Shown in pieces: positions 90 through 62,570 of a DNA stretch of 64,000 bases. The position numbers and the translations under genes were made by a program. Position 1 is the stretch's first letter. Every line of letters begins with the position of its first letter. The DNA comes from Aurelia coerulea (Eukaryota > Cnidaria > Scyphozoa > Semaeostomeae > Ulmaridae). The stretch spans positions 18,124,501 to 18,188,500 of the forward strand of contig CM076952.1 in assembly GCA_039566865.1 (NCBI GenBank), given 5' to 3'. The notes below the pieces were generated by a model. The model saw nothing but the letters and a program-made list of their open reading frames with translations. It was not told the DNA's origin and made no database searches.

Positions 90-19594
<19,505 letters not shown>

Positions 19595-22103: not shown

Positions 22104-22830
22104 CTACAATCTTGGAAATAATACATTGAGAAAAACTGCCCCCCCCCCCTCCCCGCGTTCAATGTTGGTTACTACAGGGTGTCCCAAAAAAGTGTGCCCT
22201 GTTTGCCTGAAGATTGCGAAAAAACGGCAAAAGATTCTTGCCAAACTTTTGCATGATGTTGCTCTTCAGATATTCAATTAAAGTTTGCAACCATTCCCGT
22301 AAAAGTCCGTTGAAAAATGATGGAGCTATGACCTTCAGAAGACCAAATTTGCCTGATGACTGAAACCAGTGGTCGGCCATTTTGTCTTGCTATTTTGTAG
22401 TGATAAGTATCTTCACGTGAGGTAAAAATAGTTTTTGTGAGGTAAGAAATAATGGAACTCTCCGGGGATTATTGGCATTTTCACGAGAGCTATGACATTG
22501 GAGGCTGTTCTTTCATTTTCAATCCATGCAGCCATTTATCACTGCAAAATAGTAAGACAAAATGGCCGACCGCTGGTTTTAGTCATCAGGAAAATTTGGT
22601 CTTCTGAAGGTCATAGCTCCATCATTTTTCAACGGATTTTTACGGGACTTTAATTGAATATCTGAAGTGCAACATCATTCAAAAATTTGGCGAGAATCCT
22701 TTGCCGTTTTGTCGCAATCTTCAGGCAAACGGGGCACAATTTTTTTGGGACACCCTGTATATGCTACAGTTTGCTGCTTTGCTCCAAGAATAAACCAACA
22801 TTGAATGGGGGGAGGGGGCGATAGTGGGGC
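22104..22830. mobile_element. C-run/G-run inverted element interrupted by 22175-22757
   Basis: Left part: CTACAATCTTGG, then a C-run, then GTTCAATGTTGGTT. Right part: AACCAACATTGAATGGGG. They mirror each other across the inserted MITE. The MITE at 41469-41687 has the same CTACAATCT terminus and CCTCCCCCC..TTCAATGTTG interior, so this is probably a copy of it split by insertion. Confidence 0.5.
22175..22757. mobile_element. Mariner-like MITE 'GCCTGAAGATTGCG' family, copy 1
   Basis: Left CAGGGTGTCCCAAAAAAGTG then GTTTGCCTGAAGATTGCG, mirrored at the right; TA at 22173-22174 and 22758-22759. The palindrome is long (GGTCGGCCATTTTGTCTT and inverse). The second copy, 51417-51966, lacks its right end. 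Confidence 0.8.
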
Positions 22831-23169: not shown

Positions 23170-23901
23170 AATAGACCTTTTGGCTATTCTAAAGAAGAAT
23201 ATGAATCAAACGATATTTTTATATATTTTGAAGAATTTTCGAATGTGCACAATAGTGATAGAAGTTCGAACGCCACTCAATCGAACATTTTGCATAAAAA
23301 TACCGGGTGTCCCAAAAAAAGTACTCCTGTTTAAAAAACCACCAAAAATTGATTATCAAACCTTTGATGAAATTTCTTTTTGAATTGCTTTATCAAAGAC
23401 CTAACAATATTCACAGATGATAAAATGATTGCTTTGATACAGCAAGGTAGGAAATTTACGCGTTGAAAAACCTTATTTTGAGCTTTAGTTTTTAAGCAAA
23501 ATACTCAATCTTGCCTAAGAGTCAAAATTTTCAGATTTTTTATCATCAATAAAGTCTCCAATGATAGTGCGCATTTATTTCTGTCATTTGTGACCATACT
23601 AGAAGTTTTACATGCACACAAAAATTGATTTGGCAATCGTCATTGCTTTTCGGCAGTATGATTCAAAACCAGGTAGCCCTAAACAGAGCTAAATTTGCTC
23701 ATTTTTAAACCATTTACAAAATCAGCTATGCCATGGATAATAATTTGGTCTTTGATCTACTGAACAAAAAAAGAAAATTGAAGATCGGCCGTGTAATCAA
23801 ATTTTGGTGATTTTTCAAACTGGAGTACTTTTTTTGGGACACCCAGTATATAAGAATATCGCTCGATCCAGATTCTTTTGTAGAACAGCTAAATGGTTAA
23901 T
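23170..23901. mobile_element. GACCTTTTAGCTATTCT foldback, interrupted copy
   Basis: Left arm AGACCTTTTGGCTATTCT to about 23302 and right arm from about 23847 match the intact element at 31113-31351. A 'GTACTCC' MITE (23303-23846) sits in the right arm. Confidence 0.6.
23303..23846. mobile_element. Mariner-like MITE 'GTACTCC' family, copy B
   Basis: Ends CCGGGTGTCCCAAAAAAAGT and the inverse of CTGGGTGTCCCAAAAAAAGT, TA on both sides (23301-23302, 23847-23848). The body is near-identical to copies A, C and D. Confidence 0.85.
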
Positions 23902-29075: not shown

Positions 29076-29284
29076 ACTTGACTGTACTGTCTTTAAAAAA
29101 TACGACTTTGTACGTAGACTAAGAACAGTTGCAACATTTCGAGTGTGGCTCTTCATCAAGCATAAACGGGCAAATTGTTCCCTGAACAATAGGAGTAATA
29201 GGCTTGCATCAGTTTTGCATCAGAAAACAATGAAATAGGGATCTTCATGGGGGGCCAAGGGGCAGCCCCAGGACAATAGCTGAC

Positions 29285-29606
29285 CCCGGGGGGGGGGTAC
29301 TTAGTATACTTGTCCGACGGGGATGTGCCGTTTTTAAGGGTATCGTTTTCACCAAATTTTTCTAGCACAGGGTATCAAAATGAGGCAATTTTTCTAGAGC
29401 AGTTTGTCAAAACATGTCAAAGGGGAATATTCTGCTAGATCGGGTCGCTTTTCGGTCAAATTTCCTGTTTTATAGTATACCTTTCACCAATTTTTTCTAG
29501 AACAGGTTATCATTTTGAGCGAAAATTCTGGAGCAGGGGAAAAAATTTTTTTTTCGTGGGCACACCCCCGTACAAATTTAAGTCAAGTACCCCCTCCCCC
29601 CCCGGG
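29285..29606 (+). mobile_element. G-run minisatellite cassette, intact copy (iii), 8-bp TSD TAGCTGAC
   Basis: Starts CCCGGGGGGGGGGTACTTAG, then GACGGGGATGTGCCG, then four or five degenerate units around TTTTTCTAGA.CAGG and GGTATCA. It ends with the mirrored GTGGGCACACCCCCGTAC and AAGTCAAGTACCCCC plus a C-run ending CCCGGG. TAGCTGAC lies directly outside both ends (29277-29284, 29607-29614). An 8-bp TSD is the hAT signature; the 5' TIR sequence is unlike the classical CAGNG start. Confidence 0.7.
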
Positions 29607-29854
29607 TAGCTGACATGGGCGGTAACGCGAAGTCAAACAGAAATACGTATACAGAATACAGACTTTCTTCCCCACACATGTTTCTTTGAAAAGCACCTAG
29701 AAATTGCTTCTATGCACATCACCTTAAATACACATTTTTGTGTCAAAACTGAATAAGTCACAATGAAACCAAATTTCTATAAGTTACAATGTAATAATGC
29801 ATATTAGGACATTCTAAAAAATAAATAAAGATATCGACAGTACCACTCGACCTA

Positions 29855-30390
29855 CCAGGTGTCCCAAAAAAGTACTCCTGTTTAAAAAATCACCAAAAAT
29901 TGATCATCAAACCTTTCATAAAATTTTCTTTTTGAATAGCTTTGTCAAAGACCCAAAAATATTCACAGATGATAAGATGTCTGCTTTTGGCGTAGCAAGG
30001 TAGAGAAATTATACCTTGAAAAACCTTATTTTGAGCTATAGTCTTTAAGCAAAATACTCAACCTTGCCTAAGAGTCACATTTTTCAGATTTTTTGTCATC
30101 ATTGAAGTCTCCAATGAAAGTGTGCATTTATTTCTGTCATTTACGATTAAACTAAAAGTTGTACAGAAATTTATCTGGCAATCATCAGTGCTTTTTTGCA
30201 GTATGATTCAAAACCAGGTAGCCCTAAAAAGAGCTAAATTGGCTATCTTCTCAAACTAATTACAAAATCAGCTATGTCTTGGAAAACAATTTGGTCCTTG
30301 ATCTACTTGACAAAAAAGAAAATTGAAGATCGGCCATGTAATCACATTTTGGTGAATTTTGACACGGGAGTACATTTTTTGGGACACCCG
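29855..30390. mobile_element. Mariner-like MITE 'GTACTCC' family, copy C
   Basis: CCAGGTGTCCCAAAAAAGTA at the left after TA; right end GTACATTTTTTGGGACACCCG, followed by TTA. The body matches copies A, B and D. Confidence 0.8.
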
Positions 30391-30391
30391 T

Positions 30392-31112
30392 TACCTCCTT
30401 AGAAAAATAGGTGAGTTCCATAATTCCCAAAATCTAGGACTGAACTTCCAAAACCCGGTTGTTTGGCTAGTCAGATGATTTCTTTAATTCAGTGTCAAAT
30501 TTTAGTCATTCTTGACAAGATATGGATGAGTCGAGAAATGTATTTCTTGTTTGAAAATCATAATATAAAACCATTAGGCCAATTTCAAAACTTGCAGTTC
30601 CATGCGATATAATTCACAATGCAATATTTTGCAAATTTAAAAATTCTGCTCTCTCTGGGTTGTTCTAAAAATAAAGAATTTTCCCAGAGTCCAGCAAAGA
30701 TCAAAGTCAAAACGTCCTCCGGATACCAGTAGCATTAGTTAAGTCTTCCTCGTCGTATTAAGGCAAAAACGACCAGAATTTTGGAACGGTTTAAGTTGAC
30801 CCTAAAATTCATTGTTGTTGTTCCAAATAGTCCAAAATGTTATTAGGTTTGTCATAAAGCTACGAAACTTTCCTTCTCTGGCTCACAGCCGTGGAGCCCT
30901 GATTTTTTTTGGACTCTGAATTAATTTGGTTTTCGACACAAAAGCACAAAAAGGAATTTTTATGCTCGGCAATATAATCGAATTTTGATGATTTTTCAAA
31001 AAGTGCACTTTATTGGTCATGGTAGCGTCATCGACAAAATCAGCTACAGTTTGTTTGTTTACACCGACTTCAAATCAAGTGATCAATCTCTTGATAAAGC
31101 ATCTTTTGAAGA
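30392..31112. other. Intergenic, nothing recognised
   Basis: AT-rich. It contains two short pieces of the GGAGCC..GGACTCTG dispersed motif (near 30676 and 30885). No reading frame of note. Confidence 0.5.
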
Positions 31113-32094: not shown

Positions 32095-45261
<13,167 letters not shown>

Positions 45262-46488: not shown

Positions 46489-46734
46489 ATCTCTTAGGAG
46501 TTGAGGCTGCATGCAGGCCAAGTATACTGTGATGTTATACAGCTACAACAGCAAAGTTCACGCTTACAAAAGCCAAGCACCGTTCACTAAGTACTAGACA
46601 TAAAAACCAAGAGTCACCTCAACATTCAAAGAAGTGCTTCAAATAATCTTTCTGAACTTGCAGTATACTACAACCTGCAAAATTGAGTTAGTTTCAGTTT
46701 ATTCATTTTAAAGTTCTCAACATATAAATAACCA

Positions 46735-47285
46735 CCGGGTGTCCCAAAAATAAGTACTCCCGTTTGAAAAATCACCAAAATTTGATTACACAACTGATCT
46801 TCAATTTTCTTTTTTTGTCAAGTAGATCAAGGGCCAAATTATTTCCCAGACTAGCTGATTTTGTAATTGGCTTAAAAATGAGCAACTTTAAGCTCTTTTT
46901 AGGTTTCCTGGTTTTGAATCGTACTGCAAAGAAGCACTGATGATTGCTAGATCAATTTCTTTGTGGATGTAAAGCATCTTGTCTGGTCATAAATGACTGA
47001 ATTAAATGCACACTATCATTGGAAACTTCAATGATGATAAAATTTCTGAAAATTTGGACTCTTAGGCAAGATTGAGTATGTTGCTTGAAAATGAAAACTA
47101 CAGCTCAAAGTAAGGTTTTTTAACATGTAATTTTTCCACCTTGTTGTATCAAAAGCAAACATTTATCATCTGTAAATATTTTTGGGCCTTTGACAAAAAA
47201 ACAATTCAAAAAGAAAATTTTATAAAGGTTTGATAATTGATTTTTAGTGATTTTTTAAACAGGAGTAATTTTTTGGGACACCCAG
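46735..47285. mobile_element. Mariner-like MITE 'GTACTCC' family, copy D
   Basis: CCGGGTGTCCCAAAAATAAG at the left (flank CCA rather than TA), right end the inverse of CTGGGTGTCCCAAAAAATTA before TA (47286-47287). The body is collinear with copies A-C. Confidence 0.8.
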
Positions 47286-47320
47286 TACAAAAACAGCAAA
47301 TAACTAGCAAGGAATATTAG

Positions 47321-48237: not shown

Positions 48238-48447
48238 TTGAAAAAGACCCTGTAAGCAGGACTTATGTTGTGTCGGAATGAAATTCAAATTATTTTTATA
48301 ATGCAGTCAGCCAGTTGGTGATAATGAATTTTTTAATTCTTGATGTGCATTCGTCTTTTCTCAATTAACTCTGCTGGATGAAGACCATGGGAGATGATCC
48401 ATCTTGCTTTTGTGTAAGCTTCACAGACTTGCACTTCTGAAAACACC

Positions 48448-48625
48448 CAGGGGGGGGGTAACTTAAGTTTCCATGATGCGGGGTTGTGCCATTCAAAGCG
48501 TAAACTACCACCCATAAATCCTGAAAACTTCTGAAAATTATACCCACAAATCCGGAAAAACCGAAAAATTTCACCCATGAATGAAATTTTACAAATACTC
48601 ATACCCATAAATCCTGGAAATATAA
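48448..48625 (+). mobile_element. G-run cassette, head plus decayed units, copy (iv)
   Basis: CCCAGGGGGGGGGTAACTTA then GCGGGGTTGTGCCATTC, followed by units around CCCATAAATCC.GAAAA. No mirrored tail or TSD is recognisable. Confidence 0.5.
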
Positions 48626-48829: not shown

Positions 48830-49187
48830 CCCGGAGGGGAGGGGGTACTTGACCAGGTTTTGGTCGGGGACGTGCCATCGAAACTTCAAAGGCATACCCG
48901 TTCCTTATACCAATTTTCCGAAAGAGTATACCCGACCTTATACAAATTTTACGAAAAAGTACACCCGACCTTATACCAATTTTCCGAAAATGTATATCCG
49001 AACTTACACTTATACCAAAATCATGAAAATCGATACCGTTCCTTATACCGAAATCGCGAAAATCGATACCGTTCCTTATACCAAAATTGTGAAATCGATA
49101 CCGTTCCTTATACCAAAATCGCGAAAATTGATACCCTTCCCGATTGCACGTCCCCCGTACCCAAAATATGTGAAGTACCCCCCTGGG
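48830..49187 (+). mobile_element. G-run minisatellite cassette, copy (v), ~33-bp units
   Basis: Head CCCGGAGGGGAGGGGGTACT and GGGGACGTGCC. About seven ~33-bp units (CGTTCCTTATACCAAAATCG..AAAATCGATAC). Mirrored tail GCACGTCCCCCGTACC and GAAGTACCCCCCTGGG. Flanks GCATGTAC and CAGTGTAC agree at 5 of 8 positions, compatible with a decayed TSD. Reading frames through it are by-products of the repeat. Confidence 0.6.
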
Positions 49188-53443: not shown

Positions 53444-53611
53444 TTAAATATAATTGTTGAAGTAGATGTGGATGTAAGGTCTTAGGAACACCTCGCAATC
53501 GCAATTTTTTTCATTCTGGACTGAAACTGTATTCTACGGTCGAATGGGTAATAAAATCCCCCCCCTTCCACTTTGATTATGATTTCTTAATTGTATACAA
53601 AAGCCGCTATG

Positions 53612-54819
53612 CACGGGGGGGGGGGGTTCTTCCATAGTAAAGGTACCTGGGGATGTGCCGCGAGCAAGGGTATACATTTTAGGACTTTTAGTCTAGCCAA
53701 GGGTATCATTTTTGACAATATTGGTCTAGCGAACGGTCATGATATCATACTTGGTGCAAATTTCACTATTTTTGTCACGGAAATCGTCAAAATTGGTATA
53801 GCCAAGGGTACCATTTTCGTAAAAATTGATCCAGAGAATGGTAAAAATGGTGTAGCCAAGGGTACCATTTTCGTAAAAATTGATCCAGAGAATTGGTCAA
53901 AATGTGGTCTAGCCAAGGGTACCATTTTCGTAAAAATTGGTCCAGAGAATGGTCAAAATGGTCTAGCCAAGGGTACCATTTTCGTAAAAATTGGTCCAGA
54001 GAATGGTCAAATTGGTCTAGCCAAGGGTACCATTTTCGTAAAAATTGGTCCAGAGAATGGTCAAAATGGTCTAGCCAAGGGTACCATTTTCGTAAAAATT
54101 GGTCCAGAGAATGGTCAAAATGGTCTAGCCAAGGGTACCATTTTCGTAAAAATTGGTCCATAGAATGGTCAAAATGGTCTAGCCAAGGGTACTGTTTTGG
54201 AACTTGACGTAATGACAATAGAACCATTTTCGTAAAAATTGGTCCGAGCAGAAATGGTCTAAAATTGGTCGAGGTCGGAAAGCCAAGGGTAATCATTTTC
54301 GTAAAAATTGGTCCAGAGAATTGTTTGGAGCCAAGGGTTTCATTTTCGATTGGTCCGGAGAATGGTGCAAAAAAGGTCTAGCCAAGGGTACCATTTTCGT
54401 AAAAATTGGTCCAGAGAATGGTCAAATTGGTCTAGCCAAGGGTACCATTTTCGTAAAAATTGGTCCAGAGAATGGTCAAAATGGTCTAGCCAAGGGTACC
54501 ATTTTCGTAAAAATTGGTCCAGAGAATGGTCAAAATGGTCTAGCCAAGGGTACCATTTTCGTAAAAATTGGTCCAGAGAATGGTCAAAATGGTCTAGCCA
54601 AGGGTACCATTTTCGTAAAAATTGGTTCAGAGAATGGTCAAAATGGTCTAGCCAAGGGTATCATTTTCGTAAAAATTGGTCCAGAGAATGGTCAAAATGG
54701 TCTAGCCAAGGAAACTATTTCGTAAAAATTAGTCTAGCCAACGGTACCATTTTGAATATGCTCGCGGCAGACCCCTACCCAAAATTTGGCCAAGAACCCC
54801 CCCCCCCCCCCCCCCCGTG
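53612..54819 (+). mobile_element. G-run minisatellite cassette, largest copy (vi), 54-bp units, 8-bp TSD CCGCTATG
   Basis: Left end CACGGGGGGGGGGGGGTTCT then GGGGATGTGCCGCGAGCA; right end mirrors it (GCTCGCGGCAGACCCCTACC, AAGAACCCC, long C-run, GTG). CCGCTATG directly outside both ends (53604-53611, 54820-54827). The inside is a 54-bp tandem array (GGTCTAGCCAAGGGTACCAT then TTTTCGTAAAAATTGG): about seven units at 53792-54190, a degenerate stretch, about six units at 54377-54720. 54 is divisible by 3, so several frames on both strands stay open (18-residue repeats such as GLAKGTIFVKIGPENGQN). I do not regard these as genes. Confidence 0.75.
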
Positions 54820-55217
54820 CCGCTATGTCTGGTTGTCCGTCGGGTGTTACTTGGATGATGTCTGCAGCGGGGAGCAGTGTGTAACTAAGGTGTTGGTCAA
54901 ACGTAACGTTCATATGCGAATGATCATTGCCAATATACACCTCCTGACATGTTAATACATAACCAATAAATATACCATAAATGCGTTGATGTTGATTGCA
55001 AACAAACTTGTCATGTCTGCGACCTCTTTCATGGGGTCATATAACAGCTTATTGGCAAATCACAAATAGCCAGGTTGCTTTACAGGCGAGATACAAAATT
55101 TAACACGTTAGAATATGTGACATCTATAAAAAACCAATTCGCTGTTTTTGAACGTTTCCCCCTATATCGGTACCCTTTGCTAGTACCTTATTAGATTGCG
55201 ATTTACGCCCACTTTTA

Positions 55218-55378
55218 AGGCTAATTTCCAGTCCGTAGAAATTTCCGAGCTGGCGGAATTTTAGACAATAAAAGGTCGCTTAGCCGTAACTTTGTATTCA
55301 ATGCCAGAGCGACATTTTCTCTTGAATACAATAGAAATTCCGCTCGCTCGCAAAATTCCACTGACTGGAAATCAGCCT
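55218..55378. mobile_element. TTA-flanked MITE AGGCTAATTTCCAGTC (Harbinger-like), 161 bp
   Basis: AGGCTAATTTCCAGTC at the left, inverse of AGGCTGATTTCCAGTC at the right, TTA directly outside (55215-55217, 55379-55381). A 3-bp TTA TSD fits PIF/Harbinger. Duplicated with its flank at 56575-56735. Confidence 0.6.
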
Positions 55379-55804
55379 TTAGACGTTGATGGTGGACCTT
55401 GGAATTAGATCTAATCGTTCTAATAATCATGGCTTAGCCACTAGTTTATTCACTTGGATCTGTCACTAAGATTTTCCATTTTGGATTTGTACTCTTGAAC
55501 TTGTCATCTTTTTCGCTTAGAGTGGATTCATTGGAAAATGCTGAAATATTGATTACTAAATATAAACATGATTCTATTTTTTCGTCGAAAAATTGCCCTC
55601 CGATCCAGTTAATCGGACAAATTGGTCTAGCCAAGGGTACAATTTTCGCCTTTTAAAAATTGGTGCTGATTTTGGGCATATGTTGGTTTGGCGATTGTTA
55701 ACAAGTCACATTGAATTTCTTCGGTCCATTTTTCAGAAAGCTGTCGTAGAATTAACGACTGCTGCTTCTGAAAAGAGAAAATGCAGCGTAATATCACGTT
55801 TTCA

Positions 55805-56166
55805 ACCATTTTCGTAAAAATTGGTCCATAGAATGGTCAAATTGGTCTAGCCAAGGGTACCATTTTCGTAAAAATTGGTCCAGAGAATGGTGAAAATGGT
55901 CTAGCCAAGGGTACCATTTTCGTAAAAATTGGTCCAGAGAATGGTCAAATTGGTCTAGCCAAGGGTACCATTTTCGTAAAAATTGGTCCAGAGAATGGTC
56001 AAATTGGTCTAGCCAAGGGTGAATTTTCGTAAAAATTAGTCCAGAGAATGGTCAAAATGGTCTAGCCAAGGAAACTATTTTCGTAAAAATTAGTCTAGCC
56101 AACGGTACCATTTTGAATATGCTCGCGGCAGACCCCTACCCAAAATTTGGCCAAGAACCCCCCCCC
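55805..56166 (+). repeat. 54-bp minisatellite array, second cassette copy (vii), headless
   Basis: About four to five 54-bp units identical in type to 53792-54720, then the cassette tail. The G-run head is missing; it is replaced by an abrupt junction within TTTTCAACCATTTTCGTAAA. Confidence 0.7.
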
Positions 56167-56574
56167 CCCCCCCGTGCCGCTATGTCTGGTTGTCCGTCGG
56201 GTGTTACTTGGATGATGTCTGCAGCGGGGAGCAGTGTGTAACTAAGGTGTTGGTCAAACGTAACGTTCATATGCGAATGATCATTGCCAATATACACCAC
56301 CTGACATGTTAATACATAACAAATAAATATACCATAAATGCGTTGCTTTTGACTGCAAACACACTTGTCATGTCTGCGACCTCTTTCATGGGGTCATATA
56401 ACAGCTTATTGGCAAATCACAAATAGCCAGGTTGCTTTACAGGCGAGATACAAAATTTAACACGTTAGAATATGTGACATCTATAAAAAACCAATTCGCT
56501 GTTTTTGAACGTTTCCCCCTATATCGGTACCCTTTGCTAGTACCTTATTAGATTGCGATTTACGCCCACTTTTA

Positions 56575-56735
56575 AGGCTAATTTCCAGTCCGTAGAAATT
56601 TCCGAGCTGGCGGAATTTTAGACAATAAAAGGTCGCTCAGCCGTAACTTTGTATTCAATGCCAGAGCGACATTTTCTCTTGAATACAATAGAAATTCCGC
56701 TCGCTCGCAAAATTCCACTGACTGGAAATCAGCCT
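56575..56735. mobile_element. TTA-flanked MITE, duplicated copy
   Basis: Same as 55218-55378 with one or two changes; copied with its flanks by the higher-order duplication rather than by transposition. Confidence 0.6.
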
Positions 56736-57260
56736 TTAGACGTTGATGGTGGATCTTGGAATTAGATCTAATCGTTCTAATAATCATGGCTTAGCCACTC
56801 GTTTATTCACTAGGATCTGTCACTAAGATTTTTCATTTTGGATTTGTACTCTTGAACTTGTCATTCATTGGAAAATGCTGAAATATTGATTACTAAATAT
56901 AAACATGATTCTATTTTTCGTCGTGCTTGCCCTCCGATAAATCAGTTAACTCGGATAAATCGGGTAAATGGGAGAAGCGTTTGGTAAACTTGCTACGCCT
57001 TTTACAAGTTGCTGCTGCATTTTGGGCATATGTTGCTTTGGCGATTGTTAACAAGTCACATTGAATTTCTTCGGTCCATTTTTCAGAAAGCTGTCGTAGA
57101 ATTAACGACTGCTGCTGCTGAAAAGAGAAAATGCAGCGTAATATCACGTTTTTAATCAGGGGATCACTTTTCTAACAGTCCAGAAAAGAAGCGTCATTGT
57201 GGATTTATCAAAATTAAAAAAAGCTCGAATAATGTGTTCCCCTTGTCACTTTCTTTCACA

Positions 57261-62494: not shown

Positions 62495-62570
62495 TCCAAA
62501 CACGGGGGGGGGGGGGGTTGGATCACATAAGGAACTTCCATAGTAAAAGTACCTTGGGATTTTTAGTCAT
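62495..62570 (+). mobile_element. G-run cassette head fragment, copy (viii)
   Basis: CACGGGG(n)TTGGATCACATAAG then GAACTTCCATAGTAAAAGTA and CCTTGGGATTTT, as in the head of the 53612 cassette but with an insert. No units or tail follow. CCTATGTGATCCAA just before the G-run pairs with TTGGATCACATAAGG after it. Confidence 0.5.

Follow-up and report, generated by a model that had tools for sequence, protein, structure and literature searches.

The stretch of DNA that was analysed as a whole, referred to below as the window, comprises 64,000 nucleotides (positions 18,124,501-18,188,500 of contig C10) of a genome of 574 Mb and consists of animal nuclear DNA with a GC content of 37.2%. Its genes are an exon of a class-III aminotransferase, which by our reading is ornithine aminotransferase-like, and a gene for an RNF170-like RING protein, whose closest relative (from an ENA contig) is 92% identical and whose closest named relative, from the jellyfish Rhopilema esculentum, is 60% identical. 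The genome is presumably that of a cnidarian. The window also contains three cassettes (C1 to C3, Table 1), which share, at exactly the coordinates given in the initial annotation, a plan consisting of a G-run followed by TACTT or TTCTT, a spacer, the motif GGGG..GTGCC or one closely similar to it, an array of repeats, the mirror image of these motifs and a C-run.

In all three cassettes the left end aligns with the reversed right end. The homology between cassettes is directional, as the left end of C1 corresponds to the left end of C3 and the right end of C2, and the right end of C1 to the right end of C3 and the left end of C2; hence, C2 is inverted relative to C1 and C3, and the left and right ends are distinct from each other. 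The perfect 8-bp direct repeats that had been noted outside two of the copies are present, and the pairs of TAGCTGAC and CCGCTATG directly adjoin the symmetric termini CCC..GGG of C1 and CAC..GTG of C3, respectively. At random pairs of places examined with similar freedom of offset, a perfect 8-mer was obtained in 0.125% of 200,000 trials. The flanks of C2 (GCATGTAC and CAGTGTAC) agree at 5/8 positions, a level reached by 49% of random pairs and thus expected by chance.

Table 1. Positions within the window of the cassettes, their flanking duplications and related features
Feature	Position	Length	Strand	Characteristics
C1, full-length, type T1	29285..29606	322 bp	+	termini CCCGGGG..CCCCGGG; 95.6% to T1 consensus over 319 positions
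C1, left target-site duplication	29277..29284		.	TAGCTGAC, perfect 8-bp repeat
C1, right target-site duplication	29607..29614		.	TAGCTGAC, perfect 8-bp repeat
C2, type T2	48830..49187	358 bp	-	about seven 33-bp units (3.4 + 4.0); 85.3% to T2 consensus
C3, type T3	53612..54819	1208 bp	+	termini CACGGGG..CCCCGTG; expanded centre; 78-80% to T3 consensus
C3, left target-site duplication	53604..53611		.	CCGCTATG, perfect 8-bp repeat
C3, right target-site duplication	54820..54827		.	CCGCTATG, perfect 8-bp repeat
C3, 54-bp array	53782..54734		+	17.9 copies
C5, type T1, one G-run lost	2290..2587		-	85.1% to C1; 89.1% to T1 consensus
C6, single end	48447..48620		-	CCCAGGGGGGGGG-TAACTT..GGGGTTGTGCC; weak match to T1 consensus end, E 0.003
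C7, degenerate T3-like left end	62501..62565		+	71.7% over 60 positions
Tandem duplication, unit	54444..55804		+	late part of the array with the right end and flank of C3; self-comparison
Tandem duplication, second copy	55805..57158		+	right end at 56158-56176 and flank as in C3

Four further fragments had been assigned to the same family. The fragment at 2282 (2282-2585) is an inverted copy of type T1 (C5), and that at 62495 is a degenerate end (C7), in which the G-run is parted from the remainder of the end by a short sequence mirroring the outer flank. The fragment at 48448 (C6) stands by one weakly matching end; its interior looks like decayed units of ~31-33 bp, and a second end was not recognised. 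The fragment at 55805 has to be given up as an insertion of its own, because in a self-comparison of the window positions 54444-55808 and 55805-57158 showed 93.8% identity over 1382 positions, with the flank included, which rules out an independent insertion at this place. As this tandem duplication starts inside the C3 array, the second right end is itself a product of duplication.

A number of other repeats were observed in the window. They include a family of ~550-bp elements with inverted self-similarity, present in four copies that are 82-91% identical (11372-11919, 23301-23848, 29853-30394, and 46734-47287), and a 600-bp inverted repeat (5774-6373 and 8391-8990; 98.3% identity). Inverted repeats with C-run/G-run tips (CCCCTCCCC..TTCAATGTTG and CAACATTGAA..GGGGAGGGGG) at 22139-22824 and 41515-41640 seemingly represent another family whose tips are rich in G. 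At 6501-6560 and 29249-29272 there are short G-rich hairpins (for example, GGGGTCCAGGGGCGAAGCCCCTGG), and similar ones are seen in several hAT loci of the genome.

Dispersal of the family and its target sites

A genome-wide search by end motif, as recommended in the initial annotation, was carried out with the pattern GGGGRYGTGCC-N5-30-AAGGGTAT and yielded 3,201 exact matches (1,586 + 1,615) in the 574 Mb, with none for the control. Based upon the bases that follow GTGCC, four types were distinguished, viz. T1 (GTTTTT), T2 (ATCGGG), T3 (GCGAGC), and T4 (GCGAC). The copies that were fetched (n=76) are the first 60 in order from the first 100 listed places, all of which lie on contig C1, and 16 others of types T1 and T2 only; 73 of them were analysed, one being left out as misframed and two for want of a G-run or C-run. 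A perfect 8-bp target-site duplication was found in 48 of these 73 copies, and at least 7/8 bases agree in 58. When the right flank of another copy was used as the control, perfect 8-mers were obtained in 0.11%, although the scan for duplications, which picked among several C-runs and offsets, was freer than this control. In most of the perfect cases the duplication lies three bases outside both runs, which speaks against chance. For the remaining 15 of the 73 copies, some of which are cut short or old, the best duplication is no better than 6/8.

To look for empty sites, the flanks of the 47 copies with duplications of at least 7/8 were joined with the 8-mer present once and compared with the collected sequences, and in 11 of them the joined flanks were matched by a spanning sequence. 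Nine pairs, involving eight copies, were aligned, in which the empty sites are paralogous positions in other repeats rather than alleles. Eight of these pairs are gapless through a single copy of the 8-mer, which differs at no more than two bases: it is identical and single in three of the empty sites (L313 vs L311, L261 vs window positions 1390-1595, and L265 vs L313) and shows one or two differences in five others; the pair for L280 is too diverged to judge. The check by empty sites that had been suggested earlier thus came out in favour of insertion.

The likeness of these sequences might alternatively be due to segmental duplication, or to conservation of host sequence, instead of transposition. 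Duplication of this kind does occur, as seen from the local tandem duplication at 54444-57158 and from two pairs of copies with shared flanks (L275/L276 and L323/L324) among 41 copies with perfect duplications. However, the 8-mers and the 20-base left flanks of the other perfect-duplication copies differ, and together with the empty sites this refutes segmental duplication for the bulk of the examined copies and makes it extremely improbable as a general explanation. The mean pairwise identity of the copies is 0.938 for T1, 0.938 for T2, and 0.923 for T3, reaching 1.000 for the best T2 pair (ungapped columns). Near-identical copies occur at different sites, and the closeness of the copies indicates that the family was recently active.

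These results bear out the proposal that the cassettes belong to one dispersed family of transposons, characterised by G-run ends and by duplications of 8 bp. The three cassettes almost certainly represent a family of non-autonomous transposons with inverted repeats (MITEs), which moves by cut-and-paste and comprises at least five types, T1 to T5. In addition to their inverted ends and duplications of fixed length, its members are short (consensus lengths of 321-397 bp) and abundant (besides the above left-end matches, 165 were found for T5), and they carry no transposase gene, since full-length copies are too short for one.

Relatives of the family are also seen in other assemblies. The reverse frame of C2 is related to 104 predicted proteins (103 from ENA contigs and one from NCBI) and the C3 frame to three, and the precomputed annotation of these 107 relatives contains no Pfam domain; open frames of these elements thus stand as predicted proteins from other assemblies, which is of relevance for annotation. 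Among the relatives of the C2 frame, both ends were detected in 18/104, one end in 76 and neither in 10, by a pattern that undercounts them, and the outer flanks that are long enough (5 left and 11 right) are unrelated (mean identity of 0.08 and 0.07, respectively). One predicted protein (P0169) joins a coiled-coil stretch, which we take to be LINE ORF1-like, with the translation of an element, and perhaps represents an insertion into a retrotransposon copy of another assembly. Coral repeats with GGGGTACTC..GTGCCGC..GGGTAT units are presumably related to the family as well. In viral and prokaryote collections, 22 of the 236 loci listed for TGTGCCG..AAGGGTAT have a weak second feature and none has the plan; stricter or related patterns gave either no match or a single one (L095) without G-run and units.

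Types, centres and ends

The consensus lengths of types T1, T2, and T3 are 322 (14 copies), 321 (13), and 397 (18), respectively. All 14 T1 copies are 320-331 bp long and 9 of the 13 T2 copies 321-334 bp, and T3 copies vary from 253 to 522 bp. The centre had been described as a fast-evolving minisatellite, and this fits few copies; as a general claim it is too strong, in view of the nearly constant length of T1 and most of T2, T3 being more variable. A second claim, that the arrays of the three cassettes differ completely, has to be rejected. The T2 interior is homologous to that of T3 (z 12.7 against shuffles), although the likeness of T1 to both is weak in free alignment (z 2.6 to T2 and 3.0 to T3), its scores of 26 and 27 lying within the range of the shuffles (maxima 30 and 29). 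The T1 interior aligns with those of T2 and T3 at an equal offset beside the end, and its likeness rests mainly there. When the repeat units were anchored on GG.TA, an anchor that itself favours the first bases of the unit, GGGTATC and TTT were common to T1-T3 and TTGGT.TA to T2 and T3; the core GGGTATC..TTT of the repeated unit is thus kept in all three types. Based upon these comparisons, T2 and T3 most likely derive their centres from one common unit of ~33 bp, as does T1 with less certainty, and the number of units would shift by slippage or unequal exchange.

C3 owes its 54-bp array to a local expansion; when parsed, one unit of this array reads as a 33-bp monomer followed by a shortened monomer of 21 bp. 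The motif AAGGGTACCATTTTCG is present 12 times as an exact match in C3, vs 0-2 times in each of 20 genomic T3/T4 copies, and C3 is a strongly expanded outlier among these types. The family spreads the 33-bp unit through the genome, and in C3 one copy has grown to a minisatellite of ~1 kb, with a tandem duplication starting inside it, which makes a step from transposon to tandem repeat visible.

A sister type, T5, was found by excluding the standard bases after TACTT, which gave 236 matches (control 11); its left end, CCCGGGG-TACTTCCATTATGGCCTAACAGGGG, accounts for the 165 exact matches in the genome mentioned above. Five loci were fetched from the 236 matches, of which four are T5 and one has a T1-like right end. 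Both ends were found in three of the four T5 loci, with lengths of 443, 446, and 512 bp and duplications GATAAAAC, CAACCATG, and GCTACTGA/GCTGCTGA, respectively, and in two T5 copies the inverted ends align over 46-49 bp at 88-89%. Apart from the ends, the T5 centres showed no convincing likeness to T1-T3, the one match being to T1 over 39 positions (E 7e-4). The idea that the same ends occur on a different centre is hence borne out for T5, which shares the end plan and has another centre.

The ends of all types begin with CCC (T1, T2, and T5) or CAC (T3 and T4). Behind this come a G-run, then TACTT or TTCTT and, after a spacer of ~20 bp, a block containing GGGG. The runs (G with some A) are ~6-27 bases long in perfect-duplication copies where they are readable. 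For ten T2 copies that have perfect duplications and whose interior matches the consensus at 98% or more, the left/right G-runs measure 8/8 (four copies), 9/9, 12/6, 13/15, 13/11, 8/13, and 13/7. Run length is not correlated with divergence in T2 (Spearman -0.19, p 0.48, n=16), and in T3 (n=15) it is likewise independent of the divergence of the interior.

The plain reading of this variation is that the G-runs, which would alter in length like the arrays, changed by slippage after insertion or by homopolymer sequencing error. A transposase encoded elsewhere in the genome would bind the two-part end, cut just outside CCC or CAC and insert the element across an 8-bp stagger. It is also conceivable, but unlikely, that a homopolymer of variable length separates the cleavage site from the recognition motif and that this end module was moved onto the T5 centre. 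The transposase would in that case read the G-run itself, perhaps in a folded form, or tolerate a variable spacer, and the 33-bp units might provide extra binding sites, by analogy with those reported for Galileo. If the G-run does vary in copies that are still mobile, a fixed distance between the cut and the binding motif is not needed, and the thousands of natural copies form a ready series of spacer lengths.

The transposase

Candidate superfamilies for the transposase are hAT, P, and KDZ. The termini of hAT elements begin with YARNG and the target pattern of the Buster group is nnnTAnnn; P elements likewise make 8-bp duplications, with G at position 1 and C at position 8 of the target. Hermes prefers targets of the form nTnnnnAn (PMC10368747), and Zisupton, of the KDZ group, is described as making 8-bp duplications (PMC12730594).

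The cassettes had been called hAT-type, and movement by a hAT transposase (Ac/Hermes- or Buster-like) is a tentative possibility. It agrees with the 8-bp duplications, which are not specific to hAT, and with the abundance of matches to the hAT dimerisation domain (150 scored of 418 candidates). However, in 46 duplications (two shared-flank duplicates removed), the excess of T at position 2 (19/46, p 0.09) and of A at position 7 (17/46, p 0.23) is slight and non-significant, a central TA is found in 6/46 (p 0.28), and the preferred bases are instead G at position 1 (20/46, p 1e-4) and C at position 8 (21/46, p 3e-5). Most full copies begin with CCCGG or CACGG, unlike YARNG, and CAGGG is seen at few ends only. 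The two-part end was found in none of 36 hAT loci read for ends (20 with ~1.5 kb on each side and 16 with 1.2 kb on one side), where four loose matches to parts of the motif were noted, and no autonomous copy with the ends of the family was found in them. For two hAT groups, one homology border each was read, namely CAGGAGCGGATCC and (C)CAGGGCCGTCG. An exact T2 end does lie 328 bp from a hAT dimerisation domain (contig C2:12252239, within 12251911-12252373), whose match ends at profile position 69, and this place is probably a MITE inserted into a hAT gene. At another locus (L292), a decayed end resembling that of T2 lies ~230 bp away on the outer side of a hAT border. Among the matches listed, ends of the family lie within 20 kb of a transposase in two cases, viz. 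the above one at 328 bp and an end 15.9 kb away from a different hAT match. Membership of the hAT superfamily is a guess.

A P-superfamily transposase, whose target the G and C at the two borders of the duplication recall, is somewhat unlikely to be the mover. Of 269 candidates for the P-type RNaseH domain (PF21787), 150 were scored, many of them multi-copy and with open frames of 700-860 aa, and their identical scores and open frames suggest P elements recently active in this genome; among the matches listed, however, 147 P places and 230 end places include no pair within 20 kb of each other. Movement by a KDZ (Zisupton-like) transposase is quite improbable: the length of the duplication agrees with it and 60 KDZ matches are present in the genome, but among the matches listed none is found within 20 kb of 186 end places.

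Copies whose right end was unclear were considered as candidate autonomous elements; of ten inspected, seven have the ordinary right block within 450 bases, and L247, L320, and L322 lack it over this distance. The L320 locus has a T4 left end and, 827 bp apart, a right end of the form CACGG-G-run-TTCTT, with mostly non-repeat sequence in between, a longest open frame of 102 aa and a duplication of only 5/8; it represents either a nested insert or a different centre. A short palindromic insert (AGCCTGCGTGCAGACT..AGTCTGCACGCAGGCT) breaks up L322 and L360 and may belong to yet another small mobile family nested in these elements.

Comparison with known systems

A MITE that carries tandem repeats is of a known kind, whereas its G-run end design is one for which no described family was found among the publications listed in literature searches, the comparison being made outside Repbase. 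In cnidarians, the CMITE group of Acropora is described as combining a centre that is conserved with ends of several families; it has TTAA duplications of the piggyBac type, a length of ~100 bp and tips CCCTTT or CCCCTC (PMC2872659). An assignment to CMITE or piggyBac was rejected, as the duplications here are 8-bp long and varied rather than TTAA. The mirage minisatellites of amphioxus, which are animal minisatellites like the arrays here, were also considered and rejected, since they are reported to be tandem duplications of intron-exon borders, with no transposon ends described (PMC3087553).

The Drosophila foldback elements Tetris, DAIBAM, and Galileo are stated to contain internal tandem repeats, which in Galileo hold extra transposase binding sites; for Tetris, 8-10-bp duplications are given and no autonomous copy is reported to have been found (PMC4079207). 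The repeats of these elements are, as described there, part of long inverted arms, whereas here the short ends enclose a single array with one orientation, and the cassettes are thus not of the foldback type.

Closer in kind are Xmix/Xstir and miDNA4 of Xenopus and pearl/CvA of bivalves, where, as described, tandem repeats are spread by a non-autonomous element (PMC9659126). To our knowledge, these repeat-carrying MITEs have other ends and units than those seen here. Lastly, the family resembles Mar, a hAT MITE of Drosophila, and other MITEs with 8-bp duplications (the length reportedly made by Mar), in being short and gene-less with inverted ends; the distinction from MITEs of the Mar type is that the tips here carry G-runs of ~6-27 bases behind a three-base terminus.
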